Part shown: positions 23,179-28,198 of the stretch, piece by piece
Position numbering within the stretch: the stretch's first letter is position 1
Layout: each line of letters starts with the position of its first letter
Source: Akkermansiaceae bacterium
GTDB lineage: Bacteria > Verrucomicrobiota > Verrucomicrobiia > Verrucomicrobiales > Akkermansiaceae
Direction: 5' to 3'
DNA: 41,254 bases
Assembly (NCBI GenBank): GCA_023263995.1
Contig: JALQTQ010000004.1
Location: 1-41,254, forward strand
Translations under genes and position numbers: made by a program
Notes under the pieces: model-generated
Database searches by the model: none
Told to the model about the DNA's origin: nothing
What the model saw: the letters and a program-made list of their open reading frames with translations, nothing else

Positions 23179-23211
23179 AAAAAAACCGGACCTTCAGCGA
23201 AGAAGGCCCGG
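23179..23211 (-). terminator. Rho-independent terminator at the end of the EPS export operon
   Basis: Minus-strand stem CCGGGCCTTC / GAAGGTCCGG (one G-T pair; arms 23186-23195 and 23202-23211) followed by a T-run. Confidence 0.85.
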
Positions 23212-23230
23212 CTCGGACGAAAAACAAACT

Positions 23231-23794
23231 TTAGCGATTGAGGATATTGGTCTGAGGCACCTCAATGGTATCATTGGGGTAGACAAGAATGGCCTTACTC
23301 TTCAGCTCCCTCATGTCATACACGTAAGGCTGACCACGACGATACAGCTTGACCCGATTCATCGCAGCATAAGCAGTTTCTCCACCGGCCGCTTGGATCG
23401 CGCCATACAAGGTCATCCCTTCAGTCCATTGCCGCTGGCCCGGCTGACGCACCTGCCCCCCAATGGTCAGCAGCTGGTTGTCGATCGATTTCCGGTCCTC
23501 CTCACTATAGATTTGAAAGACAGGGTCGGTGTAAATTTCAGCCGCCTTGTATTTTTCGGCGATGTTTTGAGCGAGCTCTGATTTGGTCAAACCGGCTGCC
23601 CGGACTGATCCGATCTGCCACATCGTGATCGTTCCCGAGGCAGACACCGAATAGACGTTGTCCAGTCGCCCTTTCTCAGACACCGGCACTCCGGTGATAG
23701 AAATCTGAAGGGTTTGTCCTGAACGAACAGTCTGAGCGTGGGCTGCGACAAACAATCCGAGAAGGGTCAACGTGATGATTGCAATTTTTCTCAT
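23231..23794 (-). CDS. Polysaccharide biosynthesis/export protein (Wza-like, poly_export/SLBB)
   Basis: Signal peptide MRKIAIITLTLLGLFVAAHAQ, VRSGQTLQISITGVPVSEKG...VSASGTITMWQIGSVRAAGLTKSEL, SLBB-like ITIGGQVRQPGQRQWTEGMTLYGAIQAAGG. Confidence 0.88.
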   Translation of the reverse strand: MRKIAIITLTLLGLFVAAHAQTVRSGQTLQISITGVPVSEKGRLDNVYSVSASGTITMWQIGSVRAAGLTKSELAQNIAEKYKAAEIYTDPVFQIYSEEDRKSIDNQLLTIGGQVRQPGQRQWTEGMTLYGAIQAAGGETAYAAMNRVKLYRRGQPYVYDMRELKSKAILVYPNDTIEVPQTNILNR

Positions 23795-23848: not shown

Positions 23849-26041
23849 TTAGTAGAGGTCCTCGGCCTTGGTGGAGCGGGATTCCGAAGCCGAATCTTCA
23901 ACTCGGATAGGCTTCGAGGTCGCTGGGGTGTCCATTCCAGCGGTGGCTTCGTCGGTCGCCGTCGGGGCGTAGTAGGTGTAGTAACTGGTGTAGTATTGAT
24001 ACTGACTGTCGCTACGAACATCCACGTTGTTGAGAACAACCCCGATGACCTGGCCACCGACGTTTTCAACGGCCTGCTTGACGCGCATGAGCATGTTACG
24101 GGGAAGCTTGCGATGCTGGACAACCACCATCGTGAGATCGACCTCACTGGCCAGCACCGCAGCGTCACTCACACCAAGGATGGGTGGAGAGTCCACCAGC
24201 ACGAGGTCGAAGCGCTGTTTGACATCCTGCAGCAACTCGGACATGCGACGCGAATTCAGAATCCCGGCCGCATCAGCCGGTAAAATACCGGAAGGCAAGA
24301 AGTAGAGATTGTCGACCGGGCTTTGAAGAATGACATCCTCAAGCGCGAGGTCGGTCGTCAGATAGTTGGTCAAACCAACCGAATTATTAATATCGAAGAA
24401 AGCGTGAAGGCGCGGGCGACGAAGGTCGGCATCAATCATGAGCGTGGTGTATCCGCCTTGCGCACAAACGTAAGCCAAGTTTACCAAGGTCGTTGATTTG
24501 CCCTCGCCGGCACCACCGGAAACCACCGTGATCGAGTTATCTTCCGGGTTCTTGCGGTTGAATTCGATATTGGTCCGCAAGATGCGGTAGGCTTCGGCAT
24601 CGGGGCTCATGCCACTCTGCTTGTGCAGAATTCCCACGTCCTTCGGAATGACCGCAAGCACGGGAACCTGCAGGTAACGTTCCACGTCCTCAAGGCTCTT
24701 GACTGAGGTATCAAGATGCTCAAGCAGGAAGGCAATCCCAACCCCGAAAATGAGCCCGACACCGGCACCAAGGAGCAAATTGAGAGTGAAGTTCGGAAAG
24801 ACGGGCGATTTGCCAATCTTGGGTTTCTCGTGGAGGGTAATCGGGTCACGAGGCATCTTCAGAAGCACGCGTGCTTCCTGCTGACGAATCTTCATTTCCC
24901 GCAACATCGCTCGAGACTGCTCGTAGGCTTCCTTGGCTTGGTTGTAGCGACTCTGCTTGAGCGAGAGTTCGATGGTGTCAAAGGTTTTACCCTCAACCAT
25001 CGTTTCCATACGCTCGACTTGACGATTGATCAGTTCGCGTTTGGTTTGCAAGTTGGCCTTGAGCGATACGACCTCTTTGTGGGCCTCCTCCATCAAACTC
25101 TTGGCCCGCTCATCCATGGCTAGGATGTCTGGGTGCTTCCGCCCCAATCCTTGCGCCATCATGCTGAGGCGCTCCTGCTTGGCCTCACGCGCTTGGGTGT
25201 AGTAATAAGTCACCTGGTTTTCCGGCAAATCGAGGCCAGCAGCAAAGCTGATCAAATCATCGTTATCGAGCTCAACCAACTTTTTGATCTGAATCTCAAT
25301 CTGATCCACCTGCACCTTGAAGTCATCAAGCTTCTGTCGCGCAATCTCAAGCATCTTGCTTTCCGTCATTCCCAAGGGATTAGACTGTCCCTCCTCAAAA
25401 TAAGGGATCCCATATTGCTGGATCAGAACGGTCAGTTCCTTCCTGTTATCCTGTACGATGTCACTTTGGGCCACCAGCTCGTCATCCAAGGCTTTCAGCG
25501 CCTTTTGTGCCCGGCTGACTTCATTTTGACGACGGCGCTCCATGTAAGCCGTCGAAACAGCATCCGCGATGGCCTTGGCATCGGCCGAATTAGCATGGCG
25601 AACGGAAATCTCAATAAAGTCGGTCCCACGGCGGGGAGAAGCAGAGACAATTTCCTTGAGAGTGCTAACCACTTCTTCGAGGGACTGCCCCCAGCGTGTC
25701 GGCAGCTCAATGTCCTCGGCCGCTTTCTTCAAGGTCTCCGGGGCAATGATGGTTTCAAACTCATTCTCCATGTAGTTCCGGGTCATGAGGCTTCCCGGGT
25801 TGGTCCCTCCGCCTCCGTTACCAATTGGGTTAATCGACAACATTGATGGGTGAACCTGAACTACCGAGGAACTCTCATATTTCTCCGGCATCACCGAAGT
25901 AATGACGGCCGCGGTCATGAAAACTAAGAGGAAGGTCAGGAGAATGACCCCGTAACGGTTCTTGATCACCTGCCAGTAATCAATAGAGCCGGTCGATTCG
26001 GTGATAGGCTGAGACTTCCCTTGCATGGCGTATGTTTTCAA
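23849..26041 (-). CDS. Polysaccharide biosynthesis tyrosine autokinase (Wzc-like BY-kinase)
   Basis: Wzz-like N-terminal domain, coiled coil, second TM, Walker A GGAGEGKSTTLVNLA, Walker A' LMIDADLRRPRLH, Walker B LVLVDSPPILGVSD, C-terminal Tyr cluster YQYYTSYYTYY. Confidence 0.95.
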   Translation of the reverse strand: MKTYAMQGKSQPITESTGSIDYWQVIKNRYGVILLTFLLVFMTAAVITSVMPEKYESSSVVQVHPSMLSINPIGNGGGGTNPGSLMTRNYMENEFETIIAPETLKKAAEDIELPTRWGQSLEEVVSTLKEIVSASPRRGTDFIEISVRHANSADAKAIADAVSTAYMERRRQNEVSRAQKALKALDDELVAQSDIVQDNRKELTVLIQQYGIPYFEEGQSNPLGMTESKMLEIARQKLDDFKVQVDQIEIQIKKLVELDNDDLISFAAGLDLPENQVTYYYTQAREAKQERLSMMAQGLGRKHPDILAMDERAKSLMEEAHKEVVSLKANLQTKRELINRQVERMETMVEGKTFDTIELSLKQSRYNQAKEAYEQSRAMLREMKIRQQEARVLLKMPRDPITLHEKPKIGKSPVFPNFTLNLLLGAGVGLIFGVGIAFLLEHLDTSVKSLEDVERYLQVPVLAVIPKDVGILHKQSGMSPDAEAYRILRTNIEFNRKNPEDNSITVVSGGAGEGKSTTLVNLAYVCAQGGYTTLMIDADLRRPRLHAFFDINNSVGLTNYLTTDLALEDVILQSPVDNLYFLPSGILPADAAGILNSRRMSELLQDVKQRFDLVLVDSPPILGVSDAAVLASEVDLTMVVVQHRKLPRNMLMRVKQAVENVGGQVIGVVLNNVDVRSDSQYQYYTSYYTYYAPTATDEATAGMDTPATSKPIRVEDSASESRSTKAEDLY

Positions 26042-26135: not shown

Positions 26136-27365
26136 TTAGAAAGTGGTGGTAGCACCAATGCTGATCCGATTCCGATCGTAGTCGCGGCCCGCATCCGAGC
26201 TAAGGTCCTCAAAGTTATACCTTGCGTTCAGGTTGAGTGCGTCGGTAACTTGGAGGTTCACCCCAACGTAAGCATTCAGCAACTCCTCCTCGATAGCCGC
26301 AGGACCAATCAAGCCGCGACGCTCGGTGAAATCAAGGAAAACGTAGTTGATTCCCCCGGTGAAAACCAATTGCTCGGAGAGCTGGTAGTCTCCGCTCACG
26401 CCGATGCGGAGAGTGTCAGTATTGTCGTAAAGGACCCCACCAACAGCTGGAATATTCAAGAAGCGCTGCCAGTCCTCCACGCCGTAACGGGCATAGCTAC
26501 GAACTGCGAAACTCTCGTTCACTTGAGTTCTCACGGAGGCCTCTAAATACGGGCTGCTACTATCCTTACCCCCATCGACGTCGCGGACTTGGACACCACC
26601 TCGGACCACCCCGTATGATTGTGGGGTGAAGCGATGCTCAATACCTGCAAGGATGAATTGGTTAGTGGCGTCACTGACTTGAGCATCGGCGCTCACGTCT
26701 TGGTAACGATACGAAAACGTAGTTACGGTGCGCTCACTCACCTGGTAACGGAAGTCGTTGTAAAGCGTAACCAAGGAGCGATCACCACCAGGGATATCAT
26801 CGAAAGTGATCCCCTCGAAGCGAATACCAGAGTAGGTCGCCAAGCGCTCGGTCCAACGATAACCGACAGCACTGTCGCTCGACCAGCGGAGATAGTTACC
26901 GACTTGGCGCTGTGCTTGGAAGCCGATGGAATAATCCGGCTCGAGTTCGTAAGTGATGTTGTTCCGGCTAACAAAACGAAGGCGCTCGCTTACCCTGCGG
27001 GTCCAATTCAGATTGAGAGATGCAGTGAAAGCAGTATCGTCGACACTCCGACCAGGCACATCCAAGTTGTCGAAGTAGTGAATCACTCCGATTTGGGCCC
27101 CGAAGTCCAAATCAGTCTGTGGGCTAGTGCTCAGGAACGCCGCACGAACGTAACCCTGCCCATAAAGAGCCGAATCCCCCCCGATGAGCGGGGTAGGATT
27201 GTCATCGTATCCGAAATTGACGCCAGCGGTGTAGGTGAGAGGAAGCGACTCGCTGCTACCATCTTCTGGTGCCAGATCATAAAGAGACTTGGCGCTCGGA
27301 GTGCCGGCTGCCGAGAGAGCGGCAGAGGCAACAAGAGCCGTGAGGCCTACGGAATATTTTTTCAT
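26136..27365 (-). CDS. Outer membrane beta-barrel protein of the EPS locus
   Basis: Signal peptide MKKYSVGLTALVASAALSAAG; alternating amphipathic strands (FGYDDNPTPL..., YQLSEQLVFTGGINYVFLDFTERRG) ending in a C-terminal Phe (ISIGATTTF). Start at 27365. Confidence 0.85.
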   Translation of the reverse strand: MKKYSVGLTALVASAALSAAGTPSAKSLYDLAPEDGSSESLPLTYTAGVNFGYDDNPTPLIGGDSALYGQGYVRAAFLSTSPQTDLDFGAQIGVIHYFDNLDVPGRSVDDTAFTASLNLNWTRRVSERLRFVSRNNITYELEPDYSIGFQAQRQVGNYLRWSSDSAVGYRWTERLATYSGIRFEGITFDDIPGGDRSLVTLYNDFRYQVSERTVTTFSYRYQDVSADAQVSDATNQFILAGIEHRFTPQSYGVVRGGVQVRDVDGGKDSSSPYLEASVRTQVNESFAVRSYARYGVEDWQRFLNIPAVGGVLYDNTDTLRIGVSGDYQLSEQLVFTGGINYVFLDFTERRGLIGPAAIEEELLNAYVGVNLQVTDALNLNARYNFEDLSSDAGRDYDRNRISIGATTTF

Positions 27366-27412
27366 CGTTGAATTATTTAAGGTTTTAACCATCCCAAATC
27401 GTTGGAGAATGT

Positions 27413-28066
27413 TCAGTCGTTGATCGAACTGTCAGGGACAGGGGTCGTTACGCCCGGATCATCCTCAACCGGCTCAATGAAAAACTCGGGAGCAGTCCGC
27501 ACATCAGCTCCCTTGCTGATCGGACTGATCATCGTGCTCTGGAAGGGCGAATTAAGAGGGTTGTAGGAGACACTACTGAACGCTGCCTCACCCCCACCAG
27601 CCGAGGAACCGCCTGTTGAAGAGCCCCCTTCGGATGAAGACCCAGTTTCGGACGAGACACCCTCGGGCGCGGGCCCAGCTTCGGAAGAAGAATCAGCCTC
27701 CGAAGAAGAATCATCTTCAGTGGTCACAGCGAGAACAACTGCGATGGCGTCCGGAGCGGTCGCAATCGCACACTGGGTAATCATTCGCGCTTCAGAAGGC
27801 GCCTCAAGAATGGCAGTGCTAACGATCTTACCAACAAGAGCCTCGTCGGCGTCTGCCGCGATGATGGCCGCCTTGACGATTTCACACGCACAGGACTCGT
27901 TAGCAGCCACATTGCTTGCGACGATCCGAAGAACCTGACTGGAGTCGGCGACAACAGCAGCCTTGACCGTCTCGCTGAGCTTGGCGCAATCCTTGGCGCC
28001 TGCCGCCGCGATCGGAGCAGCCGAGAGAAGCGCCGCTGAAAGAGCAAATTTGAGGGTATTTTTCAT
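27413..28066 (-). CDS. Hypothetical secreted protein: helical-repeat domain followed by a Ser/Glu/Gly-rich segment
   Basis: Signal peptide MKNTLKFALSAALLSAAPIAAAGA; repeated (I/V)V-x-A-x-(I/V)-x-A units; DDSSSEADSSSEAGPAPEGVSSETGSSSEGGSSTGGSSAGGG tract. First gene of the minus-strand EPS block. Confidence 0.8.
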   Translation of the reverse strand: MKNTLKFALSAALLSAAPIAAAGAKDCAKLSETVKAAVVADSSQVLRIVASNVAANESCACEIVKAAIIAADADEALVGKIVSTAILEAPSEARMITQCAIATAPDAIAVVLAVTTEDDSSSEADSSSEAGPAPEGVSSETGSSSEGGSSTGGSSAGGGEAAFSSVSYNPLNSPFQSTMISPISKGADVRTAPEFFIEPVEDDPGVTTPVPDSSIND

Positions 28067-28124: not shown

Positions 28125-28198
28125 TGGAGCGGGTAGAGGGAATCGAACCCTCATGATCAGCTTGGAAGGCTGGAGCTTTACCATTAAGCTATACCCGC
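28125..28198 (-). tRNA. tRNA-Gly (anticodon UCC)
   Basis: Minus strand GCGGGTATAGCTTAATGGTAAAGCTCCAGCCTTCCAAGCTGATCATGAGGGTTCGATTCCCTCTACCCGCTCCA folds as a cloverleaf: 7-bp acceptor, 4-bp D, 5-bp T stem, loop CTTCCAA, encoded CCA. Confidence 0.97.

Follow-up and report, generated by a model that had tools for sequence, protein, structure and literature searches.

A helical-repeat protein encoded ahead of outer-membrane barrel, Wzc and short OPX genes in Verrucomicrobiales: a candidate polysaccharide exporter component

What does a small secreted protein do at the head of a polysaccharide export operon? The question is raised by a minus-strand gene at 27413..28066 of the window, by which we mean the whole 41,254-nucleotide stretch of DNA analyzed here. 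A sequence-only reading had described its 217-residue product (ATG start) as a secreted protein of short helical repeats with a Ser/Glu-rich tail, and had offered a surface scaffold, a polymer-binding protein or a tether as possible roles. The data point more to an outer-membrane exporter component than to a surface scaffold or polymer-binding role, and our preferred reading, to which we give a probability of about 0.57, makes the protein the helical-repeat part of a composite OPX/beta-barrel polysaccharide exporter.

The export unit and its first product

The helical-protein gene is followed on the same strand by genes for an outer-membrane beta-barrel, a Wzc-type co-polymerase/kinase and a short OPX protein, and then by a hairpin, which bears out the earlier proposal that it heads an exopolysaccharide (EPS) operon. 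The barrel gene (26136..27392, minus strand, with a likely true start at 27365) begins 20–47 bp beyond the helical-protein gene, and its product is EpsL/TIGR03016/BBP2_2-like by profile matches, with BBP2_2 matched in 18 of 23 barrel homologues and the window barrel itself matching the EpsL and TIGR03016 models weakly (E of 4e-5 and 2e-6, respectively, far under the curated cut-offs). Next come the 730-residue Wzc-type polysaccharide co-polymerase with its BY-kinase domain (23849..26041, minus strand; Wzz and AAA_31, TIGR01007) and the 187-residue short (class 3 or D1D2-type) OPX protein (23231..23794, minus strand), in which the domain search found Poly_export and SLBB domains (PF02563 and PF10531/PF22461) only, with no Wza_C or GfcC. 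This is the sole Poly_export gene found in the assembly, which is 81% complete. A terminator-like hairpin of 13 pairs with a T tail (23183..23214, minus strand; a consensus match only) lies directly after the OPX gene and likely closes the four-gene unit; genes for PDZ, Prc and YggS proteins come next, also in relatives, but past the hairpin. At the other end, a tRNA-Gly (TCC) gene (28125..28198, minus strand) lies 58 bp upstream of the helical-protein ORF and is a conserved positional marker in most of the loci scanned. A polymer pathway that the unit could serve exists on another contig of the same genome, where genes for a Wzy_C protein, a priming sugar transferase (Bac_transf) and a DUF3485 protein stand in a row (L246, contig C518, 7201-11953), and this cluster is likely the polymer-synthesis partner of the window exporter.

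The translation of the first gene begins with a putative signal peptide (residues 1–24; 27995..28066, minus strand) that is SPI-like, with cleavage between IAAAGA and KD, and direct reading of the window sequence gave no lipobox Cys at this site. Residues 25–123 (27698..27994, minus strand) fold into a compact domain in the structure prediction that had been proposed as a check: AlphaFold, run on a 43-sequence alignment, places six helices at residues 21–40, 42–55, 57–70, 75–88, 90–103 and 105–123, with a core pLDDT of 96–98. The helix spacing of the model (15/18/15/15 residues) is the same as the periodicity of the sequence (15/18/33/48). Self-similarity of the family profile peaks at offsets of 15, 33, 48 and 18 residues (z of 6.2, 4.6, 4.3 and 4.1), values that 0 of 1000 shuffles reach, and the single window sequence gives p of 0.0035, 0.003 and 0.007 at offsets 15, 18 and 33. 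The repeat exceeds chance, and since the periodicity of both profile and single sequence matches the helix spacing, the repeat noted earlier is genuine and the description of a secreted short-helix protein stands. The about five units that had been listed are present, but the model shows six helices, and in this predicted fold the domain is best described as six helices paired in hairpins of roughly 33 residues.

Four Cys residues of the domain (27, 59, 61 and 99) are retained in 36, 41, 38 and 40 of the 43 homologues, respectively. Their partial losses would fit the pairs C27–C59 and C61–C99, a suggestive pattern that rests on co-loss across homologues, not on model coordinates. C27 alone is missing in five of the 43 sequences, and some operon homologues (G605 and several Akkermansia proteins) have no Cys at all, so that the disulfides suggested at first agree with the co-losses but the Cys residues are not essential.

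The remainder of the protein (residues 124–217; 27416..27697, minus strand) is probably disordered, with pLDDT mostly between 43 and 63, and its acidic, Pro/Asp-rich C-terminal end is confirmed. Tail identity among relatives is only 12–35%, whereas the core reaches 67% within the genus, and because the tail changes so fast its contact, whatever that may be, should be lineage-specific. The Ser/Glu tract starts within the last helix and contains 2.4 copies of a Ser/Glu-coding 18-bp tandem repeat (27676..27718, minus strand), which a repeat scan and a composition comparison mark as the species-specific part of the tract. Ser and Glu make up 31% of the tail in the window species, compared with a maximum of 26% and typically 7–20% in relatives. 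By this comparison, the tract is a local expansion specific to the window species and no family trait, and the proposal of a conserved, glycosylatable Ser linker was dropped, given a species-specific repeat expansion in so poorly conserved a tail. A PEP-CTERM anchor (C-terminal PEP motif, transmembrane segment and basic cluster) was sought by direct reading in the window sequence and in the 43 homologue tails listed, with none seen in the window sequence.

A conserved family and its coupling to the barrel

The helical-repeat proteins form a real, conserved family, for which we found no earlier description and which is strongly tied to the outer-membrane polysaccharide exporter. Pfam gave no meaningful match for any of the 43 aligned homologues, and its TPR models none at E <= 1; nothing in NCBIfam matches the window protein, no PDB chain matches it in sequence, and Foldseek against the PDB gave no match at E <= 0.001, the top, non-significant ones (E of 0.7, probability 0.3–0.4) being TPR domains and designed helical repeats. 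Assignment to a known family was therefore rejected, and the view that the protein belongs to no named or characterized family holds. In a phylum-wide sample the family was found in 22 of 388 genomes, all within Verrucomicrobiales, and in a sample of that order it occurs in 175 of 240 genomes and 43 of 48 genera. A pattern scan of genomes gave 145 confirmed relatives, and the 80 listed among these come from Verrucomicrobiota, mostly Akkermansiaceae, with one listed only as "Bacterium". Plasmid spread was also considered and discarded, as tblastn gave no match. Within the genus, conservation of the helical core is about that of the barrel (67 and 64%, respectively). The architecture varies: one 360-residue homologue carries two tandem helical domains ahead of a barrel gene (L060:8015-9097), and off-operon paralogues of about 300–365 residues, in genera such as g27, have an additional region N-terminal to the helical domain (L185, L186, L188, L189, L197).

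The same operon order recurs in relatives, as the genome-neighborhood check for homologues beside Wzc-like genes makes clear: 113 of the 150 homologues listed lie directly upstream of the barrel gene on the same strand, in 111 of 129 genomes, with a gap of 0–653 bp (median 99) among the listed pairs, all counts covering only the homologue and barrel places listed. In most genomes, those of Akkermansia and of several families among them, the helical-protein gene is immediately preceded by tRNA-Gly(TCC), and long ORF predictions frequently extend into the tRNA gene, which gives them a spurious N-terminus (MVKLQPSKLIMRVRFPLPAP). Direct reading of fifteen barrel loci for which no partner was listed showed a weaker-scoring homologue in front in nine (L236–L244), for which reason the HMM alone was not accepted as proof of absence. 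Some genomes have two or three tandem copies of the short OPX gene after Wzc (L232, L233, L242).

Overall the homologues are not scattered without EPS association, although several genomes hold off-operon copies, up to 3–4 copies per genome. In family f3 the barrel-Wzc-OPX genes are preceded by an empty gap, mostly still with tRNA-Gly (L230, L231, L232, L234, L235), and the helical-protein gene stands at an unlinked locus (L052, L054, L245), both genes still being kept. There its neighbors, which we take from sequence recognition to be hemL-like and M20-peptidase-like genes, can enclose it between them. In genus g11 a weak homologue lies behind tRNA-Gly and beside a ComEC-like gene (L065 of G053, and other g11 genomes), where no barrel of the exporter family was detected. 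The coupling of helical-protein gene and barrel is strong, not absolute.

The two genes are also found fused. In two species of g16 a single frame behind tRNA-Gly encodes helical domain, linker and barrel (G041, L062:6712-8547, 611 residues; G462, L184:5479-7428), and the helical-domain HMM matches them at 7.4e-29 and 2.5e-27, respectively. With 56% identity to each other, the proteins count as two independent sequences; the barrel profile (A2) includes the G041 protein, while the G462 protein and both helical-domain matches are independent of training. No Poly_export gene was found in G041 (96% completeness), which together with the fusion argues that the barrel rather than OPX is the closest partner, and the barrel is most likely the direct partner of the helical protein. 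A ComEC-like gene adjoins the fused gene of g16 as well.

The Akkermansia counterpart

The genus Akkermansia (g3) gave no family-HMM matches, and the barrel is present in 23 of its 40 genomes. A small secreted-looking ORF precedes the barrel in 22 of the 22 Akkermansia loci with upstream DNA, in most of them 150–231 residues long and 20–70 bp from the barrel gene (one is truncated at the edge of a contig and one has an over-long start), and this slot sits between tRNA-Gly(TCC), found in the loci scanned, and the barrel-Wzc-OPX genes. AlphaFold on 19 of the slot proteins predicts helices at 40–53, 55–66, 74–87 and 89–104 with high confidence, followed by further helices and a loose tail, and these four nearly overlay window-protein helices 42–55, 57–70, 75–88 and 90–103. 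Profile comparison of the window family with the Akkermansia proteins gave 93% with the signal region included and 22% for the mature core alone, the mature-core score lying above all column shuffles (0 of 100 match it). Position, helix layout and profile comparison are together suggestive of homology between the slot protein and the helical family.

Gene order and the 735-residue Wzc identify these loci with Amuc_1411–1414 of Akkermansia muciniphila, which has been predicted to be an EPS locus (PMC13343947) and in which Amuc_1412 is a porin-like outer-membrane protein and frameshifts in Amuc_1413 (Wzc) abolish mucin binding (PMC13055324). The layout is that of the window, with tRNA-Gly, a small secreted helical protein, barrel (Amuc_1412), Wzc (Amuc_1413) and OPX (Amuc_1414), whereas the product of the first gene is missed by the family HMM and has no Cys in many versions. 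From gene order, not type-strain sequence, we infer that the slot protein is Amuc_1411. An identity with Amuc_1409, the reported stem-cell-active protein, was rejected, that protein being 16.5 kDa and PepSY-like. The G-tract of Amuc_1413 was not found in any of the three genomes checked among the loci.

An exporter component and the rival explanations

In Myxococcus, short OPX proteins without a membrane-spanning domain pair with a beta-barrel, and both EpsY/EpsX of Myxococcus and VpsN/VpsM of Vibrio resemble the window unit in combining a short Poly_export-SLBB OPX, an outer-membrane beta-barrel and a Wzc/PCP-type protein (PMC9601211, PMC9603273). Those are two-part outer-membrane complexes, whereas the window unit adds a secreted helical protein before the barrel gene that is sometimes fused to it. 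Among the features of a composite translocon, the window's genome has a short OPX without Wza_C or GfcC, a coupled barrel gene, a Wzz/BY-kinase PCP and the Wzy_C and Bac_transf genes on C518; the keyword "Verrucomicrobi" does not occur in either PMC9601211 or PMC9603273. Exporters of alginate and PNAG have a helical-repeat part at the barrel (AlgK and the TPR region of PgaA, respectively) that binds polymer or modifying enzymes, and this part is separate (AlgK) or N-terminally fused (PgaA, BcsC), as in the window family (PMC9384988, PMC9734138). The window family differs in having no TPR sequence signature, a core of only about 100 residues and a Wzc/OPX operon in place of a synthase. Against the 34-residue hairpin of TPRs, hairpins of about 33 residues are predicted, and the best PDB matches include TPRs, none of them significant. 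By analogy, the best reading is that the role of the protein would resemble that of the TPR components in AlgK/AlgE or PgaA, although by sequence it is no member of the TPR family; separate in most genomes and fused in g16, it would reproduce the AlgK/PgaA theme inside a Wzc/OPX system.

There is also a likeness to exosortase (PEP-CTERM) EPS loci, since the window barrel matches the EpsL and TIGR03016 models of their barrels, if weakly, and the DUF3485 gene of the window's genome sits with Wzy_C and the priming transferase. A PEP-CTERM TPR lipoprotein occurs in exosortase EPS loci, and the NCBIfam model for it does not match the window helical protein. In G040 a gene for a PEP-CTERM-like protein with the C-terminus VPEPGSSLLVGISGAMALLRRRRA intervenes between helical-protein gene and barrel (L238:5433-6170), which ties the exporter to exosortase-type EPS systems.

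As we picture the exporter, a Wzx/Wzy-type pathway would make the sugar polymer and the Wzc-like co-polymerase would pass it to a short periplasmic OPX ring; this ring could not span the outer membrane, and the adjacent beta-barrel would supply the pore. The helical protein, secreted to the periplasm, would dock at the barrel's periplasmic opening and there help to recruit, guide or gate the polymer, while its variable disordered tail may reach a partner such as the barrel lumen, the OPX ring or the polymer. What is observed in favor of this arrangement is a conserved protein, its predicted fold, the operon order, the domains of the neighbors, the natural fusion and the positional counterpart in Akkermansia. 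Counting against it are the off-operon copies, the unlinked copy of f3, the g11 homologue without a barrel, the 22% profile value for the mature Akkermansia core and the non-significant Foldseek matches.

The view closest to the sequence-only reading places the protein in the extracellular matrix or at the cell surface, where, expressed together with the exporter, it would bind the exported polymer and tether it to the cell or other surfaces. It seems reasonable in that the protein is secreted with no lipobox or membrane segment, that its tail is low in complexity and fast-evolving, as in surface proteins, and that Amuc_1413 of the matching Akkermansia operon is needed for mucin binding (PMC13055324). 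We nevertheless consider it unlikely, as the N-terminal fusion to the barrel in two species would place the helical domain in the periplasm given the usual barrel topology, the helical core is conserved as much as the barrel, and no PEP-CTERM, lipobox or other anchor was seen. The same fusion bears on the idea that the protein stands outside the polymer path and serves the barrel or the complex in folding or assembly, as a dedicated chaperone or stabilizing partner: fusion would hold the chaperone on its client permanently, and the PDZ and Prc genes that follow in relatives, which might be read in favor of such a role, are set apart from the unit by the terminator-like hairpin. Thus, even with the gene immediately 5' of the barrel and tightly coupled to it, and with helical repeats often serving as protein-protein scaffolds, this role is improbable. 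Least probable of all is a general envelope family of helical repeats with no specific EPS role, whose operon position was inherited with the tRNA-Gly locus. The off-operon copies (as many as 3–4 in a genome), the f3 and g11 genomes, in which the gene lies apart from the barrel or stands without one, and a tRNA-Gly flank conserved as strongly as the barrel would all agree with it, but the gene is kept before the barrel in 111 of 129 genomes (among those listed) of several families despite its fast evolution, the fusion with the barrel exists, and f3 genomes retain both genes.

Returning to the exporter component, a broader form of it can be put forward only tentatively and is more doubtful than not: a three-part outer-membrane translocon of Verrucomicrobiales, in which a fast-evolving, secreted helical protein would be the obligatory partner of the barrel in almost all lineages, Akkermansia with its Amuc_1411 included, and a lineage-specific tail would tune the choice of exported polymer or its retention at the surface, and hence mucin binding. 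The question of how polymer gets across an outer membrane that OPX does not span was not taken up until 2022, for two-part complexes. The family described here is a candidate extra part of such exporters, resembling the helical scaffolds of the alginate and PNAG exporters, and we found no such description for Verrucomicrobiales. For Akkermansia, it also offers a testable role for the gene that opens the locus in which mucin binding depends on Wzc.
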